A model generated the notes under the pieces. The model was not told the origin of the DNA and made no database searches. It saw nothing but the letters and a program-made list of their open reading frames with translations. From Methanobrevibacter gottschalkii DSM 11977 (GTDB lineage: Archaea > Methanobacteriota > Methanobacteria > Methanobacteriales > Methanobacteriaceae), in assembly GCF_003814835.1 (NCBI RefSeq), contig NZ_RKRG01000002.1, positions 186,001 through 250,000 of the forward strand: a stretch of DNA of 64,000 bases, in the 5' to 3' direction. Made by a program: the position numbers and the translations under genes. Below, in pieces: positions 45,864-57,670 of the stretch. How positions within the stretch are numbered: position 1 is the first letter of the stretch; each line of letters begins with the position of its first letter.

Positions 45864-46877
45864 ATGTTGGAGATTAAGCATACATTATGCCCTTCCTGTA
45901 GTGTTGGTTGTGGGATTAATGTAGTTTTAAAAGAGGGGAATGTTGTCGGGACTTTTCCCTATAAAAGACATCCGGTTAATTCTGGAAAAAATTGTTTAAA
46001 TGGGAGAAATTCAATTGAATGTTATTTAAACAAATTTGAAGATATTAATGTGGATGATGTTGTTGCAGATGTTTTAAAAGAGTTGAAATCTGCTGATGCA
46101 TCTAGTGTTACTGTTGTTTGTTCAGGTAATAATGATGTTGAGGAAATTAAGGCTATTAAAGAATTTGCAGAATCTAATAATTTTAATTTGGCATTTTATG
46201 CTGATAATTTAAAAAATTTTGATGATGTTGCAACATATGATGATGTTGCTGATGCAAGCAAAATATTTGTTATTGGTGATCTTTTGTTTGAAAATCCTTT
46301 GATTGGTAGGAGGATTGTTCATGCAAAGCAGAATGGTGCTAAAATTTATGCATTGGGGAAGACTGAAAAATCTGTTACATTCAATATTGCAGATGAAACT
46401 TTCAACACTTCTGTAGTTGATTTTTTGGATGCTAATGATTCTAATATTGATGAATCCTCTGTAATTGTATTTAATTATGTTGATTCAGCCGAGGATTTAG
46501 ATAAAATTGAATCTATTGGATGTAAATCTTTTCCTGTTTTCAGCAAATCCAATTCTAAAGGTGCATTGGATATTGTTGAAGTTAAATCTTTAGATGAAAT
46601 GATGGAATTGCTGGAAAATACTAAAGTTTTATTGGTATTCAATGATGATATTGCTGATGAAATAGATTTTGATTTTACTAAAATCTCTAAAATTATAAGT
46701 TTCGCTCCATGTGAAAATAACACAACAAAAATCTCAGATATTGTTGTACCTATTAAAACATGGCTTGAAAAAGACGGATCATTTGTAAATGCAATGGGTG
46801 ATACTCAAACTTTCACCACTGTCATAGATTCAGATGTATTAAGTGAAATCGAAGTAATTGAAAAACTAAATAGTTAA
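45864..46877 (+). CDS. Truncated formate dehydrogenase alpha-like protein (cassette 1)
   Basis: 337 residues. The N-terminus has the molybdopterin-oxidoreductase [4Fe-4S] ligands C9, C12, C16 and C44 with YKRHPVNSGKNCLNGR. A middle segment FVIGDLLFENPLIGRRIVHA and a late segment PIKTWLEKDGSFVNAMG also match FdhA. Full FdhA has about 680 residues; the molybdopterin and active-site Sec/Cys region is absent, and residue 46 is Asn where FdhA/NarB-type proteins usually have Lys. Catalysis on formate is unlikely; electron relay is inferred. It resembles the flp (formate dehydrogenase-like) proteins of Methanothermobacter as I recall them. Confidence 0.85.
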   Translation: MLEIKHTLCPSCSVGCGINVVLKEGNVVGTFPYKRHPVNSGKNCLNGRNSIECYLNKFEDINVDDVVADVLKELKSADASSVTVVCSGNNDVEEIKAIKEFAESNNFNLAFYADNLKNFDDVATYDDVADASKIFVIGDLLFENPLIGRRIVHAKQNGAKIYALGKTEKSVTFNIADETFNTSVVDFLDANDSNIDESSVIVFNYVDSAEDLDKIESIGCKSFPVFSKSNSKGALDIVEVKSLDEMMELLENTKVLLVFNDDIADEIDFDFTKISKIISFAPCENNTTKISDIVVPIKTWLEKDGSFVNAMGDTQTFTTVIDSDVLSEIEVIEKLNS

Positions 46878-46890
46878 GTCGGTGATTAAT

Positions 46891-48033
46891 ATGAGTTATG
46901 TTTTAGCAAAATCTAAAGATGATGATATTCTTAGTGCAGGTGAATGTGGCGGAGCGGTAACTAGTATTCTTAAATATTTGCTTGATGAAAAACTTGTTGA
47001 TGGTGTTTTGACATTAAGGCCATTTGATGATATTTATGACGCTATGCCAGTATATGTGACTGATTCTGATGATTTGATAAGTACTGCGGGGTCTTATCAC
47101 TGTGCTCCTACAATGATTGGGGATATTATTGAAAGATTCATTGATGATGATACTAAAATTGCAGTCACTGTTAAACCTTGTGACATGAGGGCTATGAAAG
47201 AGCTTATAAAAAGGCACAGAATTAATGATGATAATGTTTATTTCATTGGTTTGAATTGTGGTGGAACTGTTTCTCCTGTTAGTGGTAGAAAAATGATTGA
47301 TTTATTCTATGAAGCAGATCCTAATGATGTTGTAAGTGAAGAGATAGATAAAGGTAAATTCATTATCGAGCTTGCAGATGGTGGGGAAGAAGCAGTAAAA
47401 ATTCATGATCTTGAAGCAGAAGGATATGGGCGCCGTAACAATTGTCAAAGATGTGATGTAAAAATTCCAAGAATGGCGGATATTGCTTGTGGAAACTGGG
47501 GTGCTGAAGATGGCTGGACATTCATTGAAATCAATGATGAAAAAGGTCAAAAGTTAGTTGATGGTGCTAAAAAAGTGGGCATTCTTGAAACTAAAACTCC
47601 TAATGATGCGGCGGTGGAAGGAAGAAGCAAAGTTGAAAACATCATGATTAAAATGGCAAAAAAGAACCAAGATGCAACTTACCCATTGGTTAGTGAAAGG
47701 GATGAATGGAGCCGCTGCATCGGTTGCTATGCTTGCCGTGATATTTGCCCTGTCTGCTGGTGTTTTGAAAACTGCGAATTAAACAAATCTTACTTCAAGG
47801 ATGAGGCAAACGCATTTTCAAGTCCTATTGCTTTTCAGGGTGTAAGACTGTCTCATATGAGTTTCAGTTGTTGTGATTGCGGTCAATGTGAAGATGTATG
47901 TCCAATGGATATTCCTGTTTCACTAATTTTTGACAAATTACAGAAAAAATACTATGGAAGAACTGGTTATGTAGCTGGAGTTTCAGAGGATATCAAACCT
48001 CCTTTATACAGTCCAGAAAAAACAGAATTATAA
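46891..48033 (+). CDS. FdhB/FrhB-like F420-dehydrogenase beta subunit (cassette 1)
   Basis: 380 residues. The FrhB/FdhB fold that binds FAD and F420 spans about 10-290 ([52 protein letters not shown]). A C-terminal ferredoxin region has [20 protein letters not shown] and [12 protein letters not shown]. It would exchange electrons with coenzyme F420. The ATG at 46891 with GGTGA is preferred; it gives the same 380 residues as copy 2. It lies 13 bases after the FdhA-like gene. Confidence 0.9.
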
Positions 48034-48044
48034 AGGTGTTTTTC

Positions 48045-48446
48045 ATGTCTGAAGATTTAAAAATTGTAGGTTTATTGTGTAATTGGTGTTGTTATGGTGG
48101 TGCGGATACTGCAGGAACTGCACGTATGCAATATCCATCAAATATTAGAATTATTCGTGTAATGTGTTCTGGGAGAATTAATCCGTCAATGGTCTTTAAA
48201 GCATTTCAGGAAGGTGCTGACGGCGTATTTGTAGGCGGGTGTCATATTGGTGACTGCCACTATGATGCAGGTAACTACAAATGGTCTAGAAGATCTAAGA
48301 TTGTTGAAGATATTCTTGAGGAATTTGGTATTGAAAAGGAAAGATTCCGTCATGAATGGATTTCAGCATCTGAAGGTGAAAAATTCCAAACAACAATGGA
48401 AGAATTCCACAAAACATTAACCAAATTAGGACCATTAGAATTATAA
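48045..48446 (+). CDS. mvhD: MvhD-type [2Fe-2S] iron-sulfur subunit (cassette 1)
   Basis: 133 residues. [32 protein letters not shown] and [13 protein letters not shown] are the MvhD/VhuD signature. This family docks on HdrA and passes electrons to the flavin-bifurcating heterodisulfide reductase. Association with an FdhB-like protein implies F420H2 as donor rather than H2; inference. AAGGTG precedes the ATG at 48045. Confidence 0.92.
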
Positions 48447-49070: not shown

Positions 49071-49078
49071 TTTATATG
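49071..49078 (+). promoter_or_regulatory. TATA box of cassette 2
   Basis: TTTATATG about 100 bases before the small gene at 49172; the following 40 bases align with those after the cassette 1 TATA box (45503). A leader of about 70 bases is predicted. Confidence 0.45.
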
Positions 49079-49171
49079 GTTATTACTTGTTAGTATTGTA
49101 TAAATTATTTGATTATTTTTGTAGTTGGATAATTTTTTTATTAATTATTAATAAATAAGTTGGGGAGAGTT

Positions 49172-49537
49172 ATGGAAATTTATATGCAAAAAATTGGATT
49201 GATTAGACAAAGTTTGAACCCTAAAAATTCAAGTTTGGATTTGGATATTGATTGGAATATTGAGTATGTTCATAGAAATCAAAATGAAATAAATTTTGAC
49301 ATCAATTTAAGATCAATTGAAAACTTTAATTTAAACTTTAAAATTGAAGGGGTTATTGTATTAGATTTATTTGAAATTTTTATTCAAGAAGATGTTTCTC
49401 AAATAATTTTTCATCGTGCATGTAATGTTCTTATGGATATGATATCTTTAACCCGTCAATCAAGTCATATTTTATCAAATGAAGATAAATATCCGGATAT
49501 AGGCAGTGAACATATTCCAAAAACTCTCTATAACTAA
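49172..49537 (+). CDS. Small protein of unknown function, leader gene of cassette 2
   Basis: 121 residues from ATG at 49172 with GGGGAG five bases upstream. The pattern is several beta strands (DIDWNIEYVHRNQNEINFDI, NFNLNFKIEGVIVLDLFEIF) followed by a helix (IIFHRACNVLMDMISLTRQS) and a polar tail. This order resembles SecB-like proteins, but I cannot claim the family. No cysteine ligands are visible apart from one. Sixteen bases separate it from the FdhA-like gene, so it is part of that operon. A decayed copy stands before cassette 1. Confidence 0.65.
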   Translation: MEIYMQKIGLIRQSLNPKNSSLDLDIDWNIEYVHRNQNEINFDINLRSIENFNLNFKIEGVIVLDLFEIFIQEDVSQIIFHRACNVLMDMISLTRQSSHILSNEDKYPDIGSEHIPKTLYN

Positions 49538-49553
49538 TATTTGGTGATGTATT

Positions 49554-50570
49554 ATGTTGGAGATTAAGCATACATTATGCCCTTCCTGTAGTGTTGGTTG
49601 TGGGATTAATGTAGTTTTAAAAGATGGAGATATTGTCGGGACTTTTCCCTATAAAAGACATCCGGTTAATTCTGGAAAAAATTGTTTAAATGGGAGAAAT
49701 TCAATTGAATGTTATTTAAACAAATTTGAAGATATTAATGTGGATGATGTTGTTGCAGATGTTTTAAAAGAGTTGAAATCTGCTGATGCATCTAGTGTTA
49801 CTGTTGTTTGTTCAGGTAATAATGATGTTGAGGAAATTAAGGCTATTAAAGAATTTGCAGAATCTAATAATTTTAATTTGGCATTTTATGCTGATAATTT
49901 AAAAAATTTTGATGATGTTGCAACATATGATGATGTTGCCGGTGCAAGCAAAATATTTGTTATTGGTGATCTTTTGTTTGAAAATCCTTTGATTGGTAGG
50001 AGGATTGTTCATGCAAAGCAGAATGGTGCTAAAATTTATGCATTGGGGAAGAGTGAAAAATCTGTTACATTCAATATTGCAGATGAAACTTTCAACACTT
50101 CTGTTGAGGAATTTTTAGATAAAAATGCAAATGAGTTTGATGATTCCTCAGTAATTGTATTTAATTATGTTGATTCAGTTGATGATTTAGATAAAATTAA
50201 TGAACTTAATTGCAAAAAATTACCTGTTTTCAGCAAATCCAATTCTAAAGGTACATTGGATATTGTTGAAGTTAAATCTTTAGATGAAATGATGGAATTG
50301 CTGGAAAATACTAAAGTTTTATTGGTATTCAATGATGATATTGCTGATGAAATAGATTTTGATTTTACTAAAATCTCTAAAATTATAAGTTTCGCTCCAT
50401 GTGAAAATAACACAACAAAAATCTCAGATATTATTGTGCCTATTAAAACATGGCTTGAAAAAGACGGATCATTTGTAAATGCAATGGGTACTTGTCAGGA
50501 GTTTACTGCTGTTGTGGAATCAGATGTATTAAGTGAAATCGAAGTAATTGAAAAATTAAATGGAAACTAG
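49554..50570 (+). CDS. Truncated formate dehydrogenase alpha-like protein (cassette 2)
   Basis: 338 residues, the twin of the protein at 45864. All four cluster cysteines and Asn46 are retained. Protein differences are concentrated in about 180-220 (SVEEFLDKNANEFDDSS here versus SVVDFLDANDSNIDESS) and near the C-terminus (MGTCQEFTAVVESDV versus MGDTQTFTTVIDSDV). That both copies are intact and equally short shows the truncation is the functional form. Confidence 0.85.
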   Translation: MLEIKHTLCPSCSVGCGINVVLKDGDIVGTFPYKRHPVNSGKNCLNGRNSIECYLNKFEDINVDDVVADVLKELKSADASSVTVVCSGNNDVEEIKAIKEFAESNNFNLAFYADNLKNFDDVATYDDVAGASKIFVIGDLLFENPLIGRRIVHAKQNGAKIYALGKSEKSVTFNIADETFNTSVEEFLDKNANEFDDSSVIVFNYVDSVDDLDKINELNCKKLPVFSKSNSKGTLDIVEVKSLDEMMELLENTKVLLVFNDDIADEIDFDFTKISKIISFAPCENNTTKISDIIVPIKTWLEKDGSFVNAMGTCQEFTAVVESDVLSEIEVIEKLNGN

Positions 50571-50579
50571 AGTGGTATT

Positions 50580-51722
50580 ATGAGTTATGTTTTAGCAAAA
50601 TCTAAAGATGATGATATTCTTAGTGCAGGTGAATGTGGCGGAGCGATAACTAGTATTCTTAAATATTTGCTTGATGAAAAACTTGTTGATGGAATTTTCG
50701 CATTAAGGCCATTTGATGATATTTATGACGCTATGCCAGTATTTATAACAGATTCTGAAGATTTGATAAGTACTGCGGGGTCTTATCACTGTGCTCCTAC
50801 AATGATTGGGGATATTATTGAAAGATTCATTGATGATGATACTAAAATTGCAGTCACTGTTAAACCTTGTGACATGAGAGCAATGCATGAACTTGTAATT
50901 AGGCACAGAATTAATGATGATAATGTTTATTTCATTGGTTTGAATTGTGGTGGAACTGTTTCTCCTGTTAGTGGTAGAAAAATGATTGATTTATTCTATG
51001 AAGCAGATCCTAATGATGTTGTAAGTGAAGAGATAGATAAAGGTAAATTCATTATCGAGCTTGCAGATGGTGGGGAAGAAGCAGTAAAAATTCATGATCT
51101 TGAAGCAGAAGGATATGGGCGCCGAAATAATTGTCAAAGATGTGATGTAAAAATTCCAAGAATGGCGGATATTGCTTGTGGAAACTGGGGTGCTGAAGAT
51201 GGCTGGACATTCATTGAAATCAACAGTGAAAAAGGTCAAAAGTTAGTTGATGGTGCTAAAAAAGTGGGCATTCTTGAAACTAAAACTCCTAATGATGCGG
51301 CGGTGGAAGGAAGAAGCAAAGTTGAAAACATCATGATTAAAATGGCAAAAAAGAACCAAGATGCAACTTACCCATTGGTTAGTGAAATGGATGAATGGAG
51401 CCGCTGCATCGGTTGCTATGCTTGCCGTGATATTTGCCCTGTCTGCTGGTGTTTCGAAAACTGCGAATTAAACAAATCTTACTTCAAAGATGGAACAAAT
51501 ATGCCTCCGAGTCCTATTGCTTTTCAGGGTGTAAGACTGTCTCATATGAGTTTCAGTTGTTGTGATTGCGGTCAATGTGAAGATGTATGTCCAATGGATA
51601 TTCCTGTTTCACTAATTTTTGACAAATTACAGAAAAAATACTATGAACGGACTGGTTATGTAGCTGGAGTTTCAGAGGATATCAAACCTCCTTTATACAG
51701 TCCAGAAAAAACAGAATTATAA
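50580..51722 (+). CDS. FdhB/FrhB-like F420-dehydrogenase beta subunit (cassette 2)
   Basis: 380 residues, nearly identical to 46891-48033. All cysteines of the [16 protein letters not shown] and [11 protein letters not shown] clusters and the NCQRCDVK motif are kept. Differences: [20 protein letters not shown] here, HELVIRHR, and DGTNMPPSP in the loop before [10 protein letters not shown]. It follows the FdhA-like gene by nine bases. Confidence 0.9.
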   Translation: MSYVLAKSKDDDILSAGECGGAITSILKYLLDEKLVDGIFALRPFDDIYDAMPVFITDSEDLISTAGSYHCAPTMIGDIIERFIDDDTKIAVTVKPCDMRAMHELVIRHRINDDNVYFIGLNCGGTVSPVSGRKMIDLFYEADPNDVVSEEIDKGKFIIELADGGEEAVKIHDLEAEGYGRRNNCQRCDVKIPRMADIACGNWGAEDGWTFIEINSEKGQKLVDGAKKVGILETKTPNDAAVEGRSKVENIMIKMAKKNQDATYPLVSEMDEWSRCIGCYACRDICPVCWCFENCELNKSYFKDGTNMPPSPIAFQGVRLSHMSFSCCDCGQCEDVCPMDIPVSLIFDKLQKKYYERTGYVAGVSEDIKPPLYSPEKTEL

Positions 51723-51734
51723 AGGGGTGATTTT

Positions 51735-52139
51735 ATGTCTGAAGATTTAAAAATTGTAGGTTTATTGTGTAATTGGTGTTGTTATGGTGGTGCGGATACT
51801 GCAGGAACTGCACGTATGCAATATCCTCCGAATATTAGAATTATTCGTGTAATGTGTTCTGGAAGGATTAATCCGTCAATGGTCTTTAAAGCATTTCAGG
51901 AAGGTGCTGACGGCGTATTTGTAGGCGGGTGTCATATTGGTGACTGCCACTATGATGCAGGTAACTACAAATGGTCTAGAAGATCTAAGATTGTTGAAGA
52001 TATTCTTGAGGAGTTCGGTATTGAAAAGGAAAGATTCCGTCATGAATGGATTTCAGCATCTGAAGGTGAAAAATTCCAAACAACAATGGAAGAATTCCAC
52101 AAAACATTAACCAAATTAGGACCATTAGAATTAAAATAA
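51735..52139 (+). CDS. mvhD: MvhD-type [2Fe-2S] iron-sulfur subunit (cassette 2)
   Basis: 134 residues, differing from copy 1 at only a Ser/Pro near residue 29 and one extra C-terminal Lys. Same cysteine signature (CNWCC, CSGR, GCHIGDC). AAAGGGGTGA precedes the ATG. Followed by two strong hairpins not seen after copy 1. Confidence 0.92.
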
Positions 52140-52157
52140 TTATTTCCGGCCATTAAT

Positions 52158-52184
52158 GTAAATAACTATCTTATAGTTATTTAC
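52158..52184 (+). terminator. 12-base hairpin after mvhD copy 2
   Basis: GTAAATAACTAT (52158-52169) and ATAGTTATTTAC (52173-52184) pair at every position around CTT. It lies 18 bases after the stop. No T-run follows directly, so it may be a processing or stability element. Confidence 0.4.
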
Positions 52185-52199
52185 TTCCTCCTAATTGTC

Positions 52200-52234
52200 T
52201 TTCTAAGATTAGTATCTTTTACTAATGTTAGAAA
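52200..52234 (+). other. Second hairpin after mvhD copy 2
   Basis: TTTCTAA, one mismatched G, ATTAGTA; loop TCTTT; TACTAAT, mismatched G, TTAGAAA. Fourteen of fifteen positions pair. No counterpart was found after copy 1. Confidence 0.4.
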
Positions 52235-52300
52235 AATAGTTAAGTAGAGAATATTTAATTATTTTTCGAATTAATTAGGTCTATATTGATAACATCATTT

Positions 52301-52475
52301 AGCCGATAACTAATTAATTGTCAGCATTACCAATTTTTTAGTTATAATTTTTCTCCATCGATGTAGAAATAATTAATCAAATAAAAAAGAGAAATATATG
52401 AAATTCATATAGGTTTCTTTCACTGTCTACAATAGCTATTAAAGCTTCTCCCTTTAATAGCTATCTATTTATTTA
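52301..52475 (+). ncRNA. Conserved structured element after cassette 2
   Basis: Counterpart of 48515-48686. Helix 1: ATAACTAA (52306-52313) with TTAGTTAT (52338-52345); its ninth pair is A-T here but T-A in copy 1, a compensatory change. Helix 2: TGTAGA (52362-52367) with TCTACA (52426-52431). Helix 3: ATAGCTATTAAAG (52432-52444) with CTTTAATAGCTAT (52452-52464) around a loop that differs from copy 1, then a T-rich tract. Confidence 0.55.
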
Positions 52476-52566
52476 CTTTTCTTTAACTTTTTTAAAAATT
52501 TTATTATTATCACTATGCTTAAGTTATTTATTCTGATTTTTGGATGGTTTTGGTTTTGTGGATTGT

Positions 52567-52624
52567 GGTTAAAAAAATAAAAAAGAGAAATATGGAATTA
52601 TCTTGATGGGATAATTATTTCTCT
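52567..52624 (-). terminator. Terminator hairpin over the mrtA stop codon
   Basis: AGAGAAAT (52584-52591) plus AATTATC (52596-52602) on the plus strand pair with GATAATT and ATTTCTCT (52610-52624), a 15-pair stem with a four-base bulge and a seven-base loop. The mrtA stop (52598-52600) is inside the stem. On the minus strand a T-rich run follows (52567-52583). Confidence 0.65.
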
Positions 52625-54253
52625 TTCTCCTGCAGGCATAAATTCTCTTAATGCGCCTTTTGCAATTTCTTTTCTTGGATGTCTAAAATCAAAAGTAAGA
52701 TGATGATCTGCAAATGCAATCTTAATTAATGGATTTGTACAGAATGCATCTCTTCTTGCTGCATGAGGAGCCTGTGCAATACCAGCATATTCTGGCTGAT
52801 GGCCAACATTCATTGCATAGTTCGGGTAGTTTGGACCTCTTAACTCGTGGATTAAACCTTCATCACTTCTAATTGATAAAGAATTTGATGCACCCGCTTG
52901 GTCTTGTAAATCATAACCATAAAATCCAAGTCTAGAATGTGTTTCTTTGTGTAAAATCATACTTAAATACCAACCATTCACACCTGCATTGGAATTTCCA
53001 GTAGCAAATGCAGTTGAACATCCTGCTGCTGCAGACACTACCGAAGCTCTTTGAGAACCTCCAAAATGAGTTTCTAAGAGGGTTGGTGTTTCATATTGTT
53101 CTAATCCGTAAAGAGTGACTTCAGTTGATATGTCACGAACAGTGTCCATACTTAAATCAGCTTGACACATTCCATATTTCTTTTCAACATAATCTTTACC
53201 ATAATAAAGGAAATCGTCTAAAATATCATCAGTATATGCTGCACTTGCATATTGGGTAAATCCTACACCACCTGACATGTATGATCCTAACCACACTTGG
53301 TCGTATAATGCTGCAGCTGCTGCAATAACTTCTAGGGAAACTTCACAGGGGTCATCTGATATTCTGGATGTTTGAACCATATCTGCTAATGTACCGAATG
53401 CTACACCACCAGGTTCGTTAGGTCCTCTTGCACGTCTTGATGGTAAAAATGCACCCATTCCAATAACATCTGCATGTTTTGCAGCATATGAGAAATCTGC
53501 AATTGCTGCTTCTCCTGCACATAATTTGTATGCATTAATAAAACTCATACCAATTTGCATTGCTGACCATCTGGAAACTGTACCTCCATCACAAGCTCTT
53601 ACTACAAGTGTTGGAACTCTACTTACTTGATAAGTTTTATTTCCAACATAGCTTTTAAGCATCTCAGCTTGTTCTTCTGGAAACTCCTTGTTAATGTCAA
53701 TTAATAGTCTTTTATCTAATTCATCAGCTAAATCATCATTTCCAGTAAATATTTTTGCATAACAATCATCTACAAGACCCGGATGTACTTCCACCATATG
53801 TTCTTGTACTACGGCACCACCGGGAAGTGCATGGTTAATGTTTTCCATATATTCGTTTATTGTTTCGGGAGTTACTTCTACACCTAATCTTTCTTGAAGT
53901 ACTGAATGTGCAGTATCCATTCCAACAATAATTGTTCTTTTAATATCATCAACTAATTGTTGGATTGCAGAGTTGTTACAAAAGTGTAAATCATCACCTT
54001 CGACATAATCTTCGGTTCCTGAAATTTTATATGCCATTAATTGTCTTTGACCTAAAGGTACACCAATATCAGGATTATAAAAAGGAATGTTTCTTTCTTT
54101 AGCCAATTTTTCAGCAGCTTCATTAAATTCTCTTTTCCTAGCAGATTGTTTCCATCCGTCAAAGCAATAGAAACTGGTGTGGTCATTTTCCTGATCTTCG
54201 CCTTTAAATTTTTTATTCAGTGCGCTTAAAAATTTTTTATTCTCCAAACCCAT
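52598..54253 (-). CDS. mrtA: Methyl-coenzyme M reductase II, alpha subunit
   Basis: 551 residues, full length. Active-site segments are present: [20 protein letters not shown] (methylhistidine and methylarginine region), [14 protein letters not shown] with the catalytic Tyr, and [15 protein letters not shown] with the thioglycine Gly and Asp. The residue after DLQDQ (residue 453) is Ala, where many McrA have the S-methylated Cys. With MrtB and MrtG it binds F430 and makes methane and CoM-S-S-CoB. ATG at 54253 with GGTGA is chosen over GTG at 54262. Confidence 0.93.
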
Positions 54254-54254
54254 T

Positions 54255-55049
54255 TCATTCACCTAACTTCTTTTTCAAGTCTTTAAAAAATACTCCCATA
54301 CCATATCCTCCTTCTGTACGTGCAGTATGTATATTTTCTATAACTTCAAGCGCTTCTTTATCTTGTCTCATACCAATATTGTCTTCTCTATATATTGTGG
54401 TAATTTCTTTTAGATATTCTTCATCTAATGGAACACCTACATCTATAGCTTCATCTAATTGACGTCCGACCTGGTCTTTTATGTAGTAAACATGACCATC
54501 TTCTTCATTAAAAATATATCTTTGAAGACCATCAAACATTAAACCGTTTTCATCAAGTCTTAAAGAGTGTCCATGCACAGTAGCTCCTCTCATACCACAT
54601 CTTGCAGGGTCAAAAATATCTGTTTCAACTAATTCTTTAGATATTTTTTCTAAATCTTGCTCTCTTATTTCAATAACTTGTCTTCCAGATAATGTTCCTG
54701 TGTCTACTCCCCTATATCTCCACATATATGTTCTTGCTCGATCGTATGGTTGTGCTGGAGCATTATACATTGAATCTGCAAATTGGATGTATCTTACTCT
54801 AATTCCTTCAGCAGCTCCAGGAGTAGGTTCTATGATACTTTTAATAATATCGCCATCATCTTCCATTTCAGCCAATGGGGGATGTACAGTTTTATAACTT
54901 TCACCAGGGTTTCTGTGGCCTAAAATTTTTACAAGTCCTTCATCAGAAACGGATCTAATTTTTTTGAATTCATGTTCTGGATTCATATGCTTTCTTCTAT
55001 TTTCAGCAATTATTGTTTCACCAGGACAATATTGTGCTTTATATTCCAT
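54255..55049 (-). CDS. mrtG: Methyl-coenzyme M reductase II, gamma subunit
   Basis: 264 residues: [40 protein letters not shown] and [18 protein letters not shown] are typical McrG/MrtG. It closes the F430 pocket. No mcrC gene lies between it and mrtD (17-base gap), which marks this as the isoenzyme II operon. Its end overlaps the upstream region of mrtA, whose ribosome binding site is within its last codons. Confidence 0.93.
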
Positions 55050-55066
55050 AATTCACCTACATAATA

Positions 55067-55561
55067 TTATTTAATAACTTTGACTGTTTCAGAAGTTTTT
55101 GAATGTGAATCTACTAAACCAATGTAACGTCTGTCAATAGAATTTTCGAAATTGTTTCCATATTTTAAATAATCTGAAATCGTTGTTTTTGTCCGTGTAA
55201 ATACTCCGATTAATATATAATAATCGCATGGCATGTGTGTTTCTAAAATGTCTTTTAGATTATTCATAAATTCTTTTAATTCTGACATGTCTACAGTAAC
55301 AATTATTTCCCCAACCATCACTCGTAACTCAACATCACATCCTTTAACATTTATTTCCTTTCTATCAGTGTGATTTACAACATGTCCTTTACCCGGTCCG
55401 TAAAAAACCTTTTTTGGAATAGAAGGACCATGTATTAAGACTCTTTGTTGACCTTTTAATTTATAAATCTCATTTAAAATCTTTTCGGTTGTTTTAGGTT
55501 TTAAAAATCTGTATGGAGTAATTTTAACATCTATAACATTAATTTGTTCTGATTCATCCAT
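55067..55561 (-). CDS. mrtD: Methyl-coenzyme M reductase operon protein D
   Basis: 164 residues: IDVKITPYRFLKPKTTEKIL, RVLIHGPSIPKKVFYGPGKG and ELRVMVGEIIVTVD fit McrD/MrtD, a non-structural protein implicated in assembly or cofactor delivery. ATG at 55561 with AGGTG five bases upstream replaces a longer frame beginning inside mrtB. Confidence 0.92.
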   Translation of the reverse strand: MDESEQINVIDVKITPYRFLKPKTTEKILNEIYKLKGQQRVLIHGPSIPKKVFYGPGKGHVVNHTDRKEINVKGCDVELRVMVGEIIVTVDMSELKEFMNNLKDILETHMPCDYYILIGVFTRTKTTISDYLKYGNNFENSIDRRYIGLVDSHSKTSETVKVIK

Positions 55562-55571
55562 AAAAACACCT

Positions 55572-56903
55572 TCAAAGTTTATCTTTAATTTCTCCTGCAA
55601 TTTTTGCTACATTGGGGATTGGATTTCTAAGATTGTCTATGGTGCCATAAACAGTTCCGATTAATGCTGATGTCCTTTGAACTGAAAACATTTGAGTACC
55701 TGCATCTAAACACATTGCTGCTGATGCACATGGGATTGCAGTTCCTTTTGCATGTCTTGTTACCACATGGTTTCCATGGAAAGTTCCGGGTCCTCCACCA
55801 CCATAAATTGAATGTGAGAAGAAACTGAATCCTACACCAACACCTTCTGTTCTACCATAATCCACTCCTGGAAGTCCAGTTTCATATTCTAACATGTCAT
55901 TATAGTATAATACTGTTGATGCTACTGCCTGTGCGGCTCTTGCAGCCCCTACATTAATAATTACTGCTGCAAGTAAACCTGCAGCAGCATATGCATTCCA
56001 TAATGCCCAATCAATAGGTTCATACATATTATATCCTGAGGGCATTTTTTTAGCTACTTTAATGATTTTATCTTCAATTGCTCTTCCAACTAATGTTTGG
56101 ATAACTGTACCTACTGTTCCTTTACCATTTTCTTTAACTATATCAAATACAAGGTTATTTGCATTTAATCCTTGATAAGCTAAAGTCAATAAATGCATTC
56201 TTTCAAAAGCTCCTGTAGCATCACCTGTTTCAAACATTGCAGTTTGCTCCATAATTGAAGATAATGCAGCAGCATTTAAAGTTTGTTTATTTGTAATAGC
56301 CACTACGTGATTTGCCATAATGTTTCTTAAACCATATCCCAATCCTTCTAAAAGAACGGGTGGTCCAAGTAATGCACTAATATTTGACCCTGAAAGGTCA
56401 ACTGTTCTTGGGTATGCTCCCATTACTGCAGTTTTAATGGTTGATGCATCAAACATATTAATTTCAAAGCTGTCAATGATTGATTGAATGGTTGCTGCAC
56501 TTGTTTGTAAAGTAGATACACTGTAATCTGCGGCTACATTTAATCTTTCAAATGGGAGTTGAACTAATAACTGTTGTCCACCATTAATGAGATTGACTGT
56601 GGTGTCATCATCTTCATTAACCTGTAGTATTTTTTTAATTTTTGTTGCAATTAATTCTGCATTTTTAACAATAGGTAAATCTAATTCACGGCCTGGAATA
56701 TAAGTGGATTTTCCACCCATTGCACCTGATTTTAAACCTTTTTCAATTCCTACTAAATTAACAGCGGCTGATCTTTTAATATCATATATCATCTGTTGTA
56801 TAGCAGAATTTTTAAGGGGACTAATAGATTCAAGGGGTACTGATTCTTCAATAATTTTCCCATCTGGACCATATAAATCTAAATTGTCATCATATATTTT
56901 CAT
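55572..56903 (-). CDS. mrtB: Methyl-coenzyme M reductase II, beta subunit
   Basis: 443 residues: [40 protein letters not shown] and the C-terminal [20 protein letters not shown] with the coenzyme B-contacting region. First gene of mrtBDGA, with AGGAGG before its ATG. Two palindromes and a cluster of AAGTATTA words lie upstream. Confidence 0.94.
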
Positions 56904-56933
56904 TAGCTACCTCCTAAAAAATCATATTAAATA

Positions 56934-56952
56934 ATTAGTGCATTGCACTAAT
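56934..56952. promoter_or_regulatory. Palindrome in the mrtB leader
   Basis: ATTAGTGCA and TGCACTAAT around a single T, nine paired positions each side. It lies 31 bases before the mrtB start, downstream of the predicted transcription start, so it could act as a roadblock operator or form an RNA hairpin. Confidence 0.5.
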
Positions 56953-56974
56953 CTTTAATACTTGTTTTAATAAT

Positions 56975-56995
56975 GATTATTTTAGTAAAATAATC
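56975..56995. promoter_or_regulatory. Palindrome at the predicted mrtB transcription start
   Basis: GATTATTTTA and TAAAATAATC flank one G: ten paired positions each side. With the TATA box at 57016-57027 transcription should begin around 56990-56995, inside this palindrome. Confidence 0.5.
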
Positions 56996-57015
56996 GTAAT
57001 TAGTTACTAGTAATA

Positions 57016-57027
57016 CTTATATAAATT
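57016..57027 (-). promoter_or_regulatory. TATA box of the mrt operon
   Basis: Minus strand reads AATTTATATAAG. It predicts a leader of about 90 bases to the mrtB ATG. A 10-base palindrome TTACTAGTAA (57004-57013) lies just downstream of it. Confidence 0.5.
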
Positions 57028-57488
57028 TTTCTTCAATTGAAAAGGTTTAAAATTTATTTGATTCTTATTTTACTAAATTTTAAGTCTATTATCTAAGTTT
57101 AAGCTGATGTATGTTTTTTTATTTTGAAAAAAAAGATTAGTAATATTATTTTATTAAAAAGTATTATTTTTATATTTTTATATTTTTACCCTATTCAATA
57201 ATATTTTAGAAAATTAGTGGAAATTATAATACGTCTTGTTTAAATAGGTGTTTTTTGTCCTTTTTTGAATTAAAATATCTATAATTTTTATTTTACTTCA
57301 AATATGGTTATTGGTATTGATGATTTTGTAAAAAGTAATAAGTATTACACTGTGAATTTGTACTAAGTATTATTTTTTCTTAAAAAAATTGATTAAAATA
57401 ATAATTTTTTAATATAAAAATTAAATTGAATAAAATATTTTGTTTTTGTAATTAAGATATAACTTTATAAAATCAGATATATTAAAAA

Positions 57489-57670
57489 AATAGAAGTAAA
57501 GTTTTGACTTCTATTGGTTTGGCAAAGTTTGATGATGAAGTCAATTTTACTTATATTTTTTCAACTTATGATGTAAATTGGTTTGTTTTGTGCAACAACC
57601 AAATTACTTTTAATAGTAATAATTATATAAATGTTTGTTTTAGTGATTGTATCACTCCATACTTATTTTT
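57489..57670 (+). ncRNA. Candidate short transcript upstream of the nicotianamine synthase gene
   Basis: TATA-like CTTTATAAA at 57463-57471 would start RNA near 57490, exactly at AATAGAAGT (57489-57497), which pairs with ACTTCTATT (57507-57515). A second hairpin AGTGAT-TGT-ATCACT lies at 57642-57656. A 66-codon frame (57504-57704) starts with TTG, lacks a ribosome binding site and is probably not translated. Weak evidence. Confidence 0.2.

Follow-up and report, generated by a model that had tools for sequence, protein, structure and literature searches.

A promoter module shared by mrtB and a predicted antisense RNA directed at mcrB in Methanobrevibacter

The mrtB promoter of Methanobrevibacter gottschalkii contains a module made up of a TATA box, a TATTACT motif and a potential hairpin. 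A second copy of this module lies further upstream, where it precedes a predicted small RNA (asR) complementary to the beginning of mcrB, which encodes the other methyl-CoM reductase isoenzyme. The complementarity recurs in related genomes and always lies on the mrt-sense strand. The reading favoured here, to which a probability of roughly 0.6 is attached, is that when mrt is switched on an antisense RNA is made as well and blocks the translation of mcrB.

The region would then represent the start of a small mrt regulon, in whose promoters the TATA box is followed at once by an invariant TATTACT and a hairpin runs from the predicted transcription start. A putative factor would read the TTATTACT element and switch the module on, so that mrt and an RNA of about 120 nt would be made together from the same strand. 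Pairing of this RNA with the mcrB mRNA over the start codon region would block translation, and the synthesis of isoenzyme I would fall. Depending on the species, the antisense would be carried by a separate small RNA, by the mrt 3'UTR or by the mrtB 5' leader. If this is correct, the choice between two methane-forming enzymes would be explained by an antisense tied to the mrt promoter module, and an RNA of about 120 nt with a defined target makes the isoenzyme switch testable in gut and rumen methanogens. The chances are evenly balanced for the wider proposal that isoenzyme II silences isoenzyme I by RNA in Methanobrevibacter-type methanogens, and that the 3'UTR of an operon with FdhA-like, FrhB-like and MvhD genes may also aim at the mcrB leader.

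Promoter and leader of the mrt operon

The window (the whole 64-kb stretch of DNA analysed) holds an mrtBDGA operon on the minus strand (52598–56903), recognised from its ORFs and from Pfam matches to MCR_beta, MCR_D, MCR_gamma and MCR_alpha. It comprises mrtB (55572–56903), mrtD (55067–55600), mrtG (54255–55049) and mrtA (52598–54262); Pfam finds no mrtC in it, and a second McrB is encoded elsewhere in the same genome. Upstream of mrtB, on the same strand, the TATA box TTTATATAA (57017–57025), conserved in an alignment of eight promoters, is followed directly by GTATTACT (57009–57016), the window form of TTATTACT. Its TATTACT is invariant in all eight aligned sequences and is also found in the remaining promoters of the module group. 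The usual archaeal TATA spacing places the mrtB start at about 56995, the first base of a 21-bp palindrome (56975–56995), which would fold into a hairpin, SL1, at the 5' end predicted for the mrt mRNA. A second leader hairpin, SL2 (56924–56961), seen in RNA folds, has a 19-bp palindrome as its upper part and is followed by the mrtB ribosome-binding site AGGAGG (56910–56915).

An earlier note on this DNA had described three nested palindromes at this promoter, each of nine to ten pairs and hard to obtain by chance. The two longer ones are exact: the 21-mer over the predicted start has ten pairs and a centre (GATTATTTTA-G-TAAAATAATC), and the 19-mer in the leader (56934–56952) nine pairs and a centre (ATTAGTGCA-T-TGCACTAAT). 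The third, TTACTAGTAA (57004–57013), has five pairs only, its left half being the TTACT of GTATTACT, and the three stand in succession, none inside another. The 64-kb window contains 11 perfect palindromes with arms of at least 9 and four with arms of at least 10. The 1229-bp intergenic region (84% AT) was shuffled 2000 times and scored per 157 bp: at least one palindrome with an arm of at least 9 occurred in 3.25% and with an arm of at least 10 in 1.3%. None of the 2000 had two palindromes (arms of at least 9, one of at least 10) within a 157-bp piece, while the real pair spans 62 bp. Thus chance does not account for the 21-mer and the 19-mer, as the note had supposed. For even palindromes with arms of at least 5 the expectation is 0.82 per 157 bp, and TTACTAGTAA by itself therefore carries no meaning.

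Among 67 genomes of the genus, 15 have an mrtB-like gene (G000, the genome of the window, and G135, G098, G060, G112, G057, G093, G072, G100, G130, G054, G020, G122, G069 and G111), in pieces or partial in G069, G122 and G111. In six of the 15 (G098, G112, G100, G130, G122 and G111) mtd lies directly 5' of mrtB; in G057 (C1:1503057–1503878) and G093 (C58:10859–11680) it lies directly 3' of mrtA. The mrtB of G069 (C13:3060–24504) is in two parts about 21 kb apart, as if by insertion of an element. TATA box, TATTACT and inverted repeat are present at eight of the nine free-standing mrtB promoters of the genus, G020 being the exception, and the repeat also occurs at the mrtB promoter of G014, from another genus. 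Conservation among relatives, proposed earlier as a check, is thus borne out for the 21-mer. In the eight-sequence alignment the repeat arms are nearly invariant and the leader downstream is not conserved; the 19-mer is kept as a structure and not as a sequence, and the right half of TTACTAGTAA in part of the relatives only. The repeat measures 19, 20, 21 or 25 nt, and its inner pairs are altered in both arms (TTTA/TAAA, TAT/ATA, TTC/GAA).

In all nine mrtB leaders the fold begins with a hairpin corresponding to the 21-mer; the pairing that follows mostly takes the form of one long hairpin, closing just 5' of the ribosome-binding site. Behind the first hairpin the leader is more stable than its shuffles in all nine (z −1.7 to −4.2), against control means of +0.12 upstream of the TATA box (n = 9) and −0.26 for mtd leaders (n = 17). 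RNA hairpins are therefore preferred for both palindromes, with TTATTACT as a DNA-level element. A hairpin near the expected start, itself a predicted position, is predicted in all 22 promoters folded, with paired changes judged by eye; its mean z is −2.5 for mrtB (n = 9), −2.4 for the small RNA (n = 4) and −3.4 for the FdhA-like operon (n = 6), whose hairpins have 15 G.U among 83 pairs. Since pairing is kept while length varies and G.U pairs occur, the 21-mer is read here as a hairpin with which the mRNA begins, inside a common promoter module, and not as a rigid operator. In the fold of the window leader the 19-mer appears as the tip of the second hairpin. Rfam gives no match up to E 1 in 56800–57300 and, across the whole window at gathering scores, one tRNA and nothing more.

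These two hairpins in all nine leaders, and the stability that remains there beyond the controls once the first is set aside, would also be expected if the palindromes were visible parts of two stem-loops that merely stabilise the mRNA or tune translation. This simpler explanation, compatible in part with the preferred one, has slightly less than an even chance of being sufficient. It leaves unexplained the invariant TATTACT, the promoter held in common with the small RNA and the antisense itself, and structure is present in the mcrB leaders too (mean z −1.36, n = 16, L120 not included). Alternatively, mrt may be switched by a dimeric transcription factor with the 21-mer as its operator, and the antisense further upstream would not be involved. 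GATTATT and TATTACT are indeed conserved in sequence although the leader diverges, and the same signature precedes several promoters. An operator would have a fixed half-site spacing and sequence, however, whereas the repeat ranges from 19 to 25 nt and the arms vary in several members, those of the window small RNA in both halves (GGTTGTT). Furthermore, the G.U pairs of the FdhA-like operon hairpins fit RNA better than DNA, and the other two of the three strict copies of the repeat in the own genome lie within ORFs. An operator of this kind is considered unlikely.

The second module copy and the predicted antisense RNA

A covariance model of the mrtB promoter recovered five mrtB promoters at E ≤ 1e-4; it missed those of G057 and G093, both recognisable by eye, and found that of G072 only at E 0.86. 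In G060, G054 and G135 weaker second copies appeared (E 0.003, 0.023 and 0.195 in the three genomes), about 570–700 bp further upstream than the first. In the window the second copy, about 600 bp upstream of the mrtB promoter and likewise on the minus strand (57615–57631), consists of a TATA box (57631–57623) and TTATTACT (57622–57615). Where the small RNA is predicted to start, the hairpin (57578–57603) has diverged arms, GGTTGTT as against GATTATT in relatives. The predicted RNA itself (asR, 57484–57602, about 120 nt) contains no long ORF. Within it, 17 nt (57520–57536) are perfectly complementary to positions +2 to +18 of the genome's own mcrB, with interrupted pairing reaching 57547, and sequence and fold indicate a terminator-like hairpin (57484–57512) followed by seven T. 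The predicted RNA is encoded on contig C2 and its proposed target mcrB on C1, away from one another.

The order of elements is the same in G060, G054, G135 and the window: TATA box and TTATTACT, start hairpin, ATCATCAAACTTTGCC or a near form, hairpin and T run, ATCATCAAACTTTGCC being the reverse complement of the mcrB start (GGCAAAGTTTGATGAT). G069 has a like arrangement with TTTAAATAATTATTACT, in which one core change is compatible with G.U pairing. An alignment of the five small-RNA genes matches at the promoter and at TCAAAnTTTGCC, its mean column identity being 48%; the genes are syntenic and probably of one origin. In folds of seven antisense RNAs the core is wholly unpaired in three, and 9–10 of its 16 bases are unpaired in the other four. 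The small-RNA genes of G000, G060, G135 and G069 have a second conserved block, approximately CAATTTYTACATC, behind the first hairpin.

The 12-mer TCAAACTTTGCC was sought in the 67 genomes of the genus, matches at contig ends being assumed to be cut mcrB genes. In the own genome it occurs just twice, at mcrB and in asR, and it lies upstream of mrtB in four genomes (G000, G060, G054 and G135). G072 has it in the 3'UTR behind mrtA, and G093 behind mtd in an mrtBDGA-mtd unit, in both cases within the loop portion of a long stem in the 3'UTR. The mrtB 5' leader of G020 contains 15 nt of this mcrB antisense, 80 nt before the ATG. The antisense thus has three placements, a separate RNA gene, a 3'UTR and a 5' leader; those in the 3'UTR and the 5' leader would have arisen separately or by rearrangement of the RNA gene. 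Six further matches, in G057, G069 (C5), G093 (C2), G107, G125 and G091, fall within long reading frames and are taken as chance. A search allowing up to two mismatches in 11 genomes gave no further convincing non-coding copy, G057 included.

In 15 genomes the mrt flanks were compared with the own mcrB from −40 to +50 and with shuffled mcrB starts, those of G032 and G052 being unparsed and left out. Perfect complementarity of 13–23 nt is present in eight of 11 genomes of the genus, always on the mrt-sense strand and between mcrB −6 and +30: 23 nt in G054, 19 in G093, 18 in G135, 17 in both the window and G072, 15 in G020, 14 in G060 and 13 in G069. Shuffled starts gave means of 9–10 nt and maxima of 11–14 nt in the matching regions (40 shuffles), so that G069 equals the largest of its 40 shuffles and G060 is barely above. 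When G.U pairs and a few mismatches are tolerated, with the genus consensus mcrB as target, ungapped complementary segments reach 30 nt in G060, 31 in G069 and 28 in the window; G020 is modest in this comparison (z 1.5). The test found no antisense in G057 (11 nt), G098 (10) and G112 (9) within the genus, nor in G017 and G029 outside it (9 nt each). G057 has the module and lacks the antisense in its mrt flanks. By promoter type, the antisense accompanies eight of nine free-standing promoters and none of six fused to mtd (Fisher p 0.0014, a guide only, as the genomes are related and some contigs of the fused type are cut). Covariation of the pairing is poorly testable, since the genus shows almost no variation at the mcrB start.

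The complementary stretch might be a relic, a functionless fragment of the mcrB start copied beside mrt. On the opposite strand, the window and G069 read LAKFDDE and LAKFDDK, resembling the MAKFDDK of McrB, from which the antisense probably began as an inverted copy of mcrB. That it remained functionless is improbable, however, as the core is conserved while its flanks diverge, nearly always the same bases of the mcrB start are covered, and all eight cases lie on the same strand in three different places. Chance complementarity in AT-rich DNA, for which the six reading-frame matches among 67 genomes might speak, is a very remote prospect given perfect matches of 13–23 nt against shuffle means of 9–10 and maxima of 11–14, and given the agreement of position and strand across genomes. 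The earlier note had seen in the palindromes the site that decides between the isoenzymes; a control region of mrt with an apparent link to that choice is upheld, three operators are not. The element most likely to act on the other isoenzyme would be that at about 57484–57631, outside the 56934–57027 to which the note referred.

Comparison with known systems

The conditions under which each methyl-CoM reductase isoenzyme is used are named as a gap in the available sections of a review (PMC10658910). In Methanothermobacter, the accessible text of one paper describes Mrt as favoured early and Mcr late in growth, answering to H2 (PMC3087415). The choice between two isoenzymes in response to H2 is the same there (PMC3087415, PMC10658910), but the regulator proposed on the mcr promoter is a protein, IMPDH VII (MTH126), and the section available mentions no RNA (PMC3087415). 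The Tfx protein of Methanothermobacter offers a parallel in that its control site lies downstream of the fmdECB promoter, and this methanogenesis operon too has an isoenzyme counterpart; Tfx is, however, a DNA-binding protein and concerns another enzyme, as far as the accessible text goes (PMC3087415).

Trans-acting small RNAs of methanogens that pair with mRNAs are represented by sRNA162 and sRNA154 of Methanosarcina mazei, as outlined in the available parts of the sources (PMC3510493, PMC11549558). By comparison, asR is predicted to target methyl-CoM reductase I and shares its promoter module with isoenzyme II, while in some Methanobrevibacter genomes the predicted antisense sits within the mrt transcript itself. 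Structured 5' leaders in Methanolobus psychrophilus likewise make leader RNA structure a regulatory layer, but the excerpts available describe no antisense to an isoenzyme gene (PMC5378194). A literature search returned no small RNA against mcr and no palindrome at mrt.

Candidate regulon and the mcrB leader

Judged by the promoter signature, mrt, mtd and the FdhA-like/FrhB-like/MvhD module would belong to an isoenzyme II regulon. The pattern TTTATANNNNTATTACT gave 45 matches in nine genomes as against 38 for its reversed control; it is therefore weak alone, and members were picked by context. In the window a TATA box with TTATTACT (49071–49087, plus strand) and a hairpin at about 49102–49135 precede the operon at 49160–52139, which encodes a small protein and FdhA-like, FrhB/FdhB-like and MvhD-like proteins. 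The module stands before such an operon in G000 and G093, and before the same small-protein gene in G072, G069, G060 and G020. One copy of mtd, in G072, has both module and hairpin, and in G060 and G135 the module precedes a stretch 5' of a gene whose sequence was recognised by eye as truA-like. Several further matches to TTTATANNNNTATTACT precede other genes, many of them secreted-looking, and are not counted as members. A regulon defined by the repeat alone (GATTATTN3-9AATAATC) was rejected; the pattern occurs at three places in the own genome, two of them inside ORFs. Among 12 mtd loci scanned there was no perfect copy of the repeat; near-matches with one or two mismatches, not checked individually, occur at eight. 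The window has two closely similar tandem FdhA-like/FrhB-like/MvhD clusters (45864–48446 and 49554–52139), only the second of which is preceded by an mrt-type module.

The mcrB 5' leader is conserved across Methanobacteriaceae (the own leader, L002, and 48 other distinct leaders) and consists of a closing stem GTATACCA...GGTATAT, a variable hairpin and AGGAGGGAAAAAATG. Rfam gave no match at mcrB leaders in the three loci tested, and from its sequence this looks like an undescribed structured leader. RNAalifold on 18 mcrB leaders found 14 pairs, of which a single one has both its bases changed; this result establishes neither covariation nor a three-way junction drawn by eye.

Directly behind the MvhD stop, many genomes have AGCCATAT, which is complementary to the mcrB leader at around −113 to −97. 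Cases include L188 and G069 (L282), and in G069 both sides differ matchingly (CCGCC against GGCGGGC). Genomes that lack mrt have the complementarity too, an adjacent hairpin has arms resembling part of it, and the window copies of the FdhA-like operon 3'UTR do not have it. That this 3'UTR may be aimed at the structured mcrB leader is regarded as a lead. Behind the MvhD-like gene, in the window (52140–52480) and in other genomes, lie about 300 nt of conserved non-coding sequence rich in hairpins (TTGTCTTTCTAAGATTAGTA ... GGTTTCTTTCACTGTCTACAATAGCTATTAAAG).
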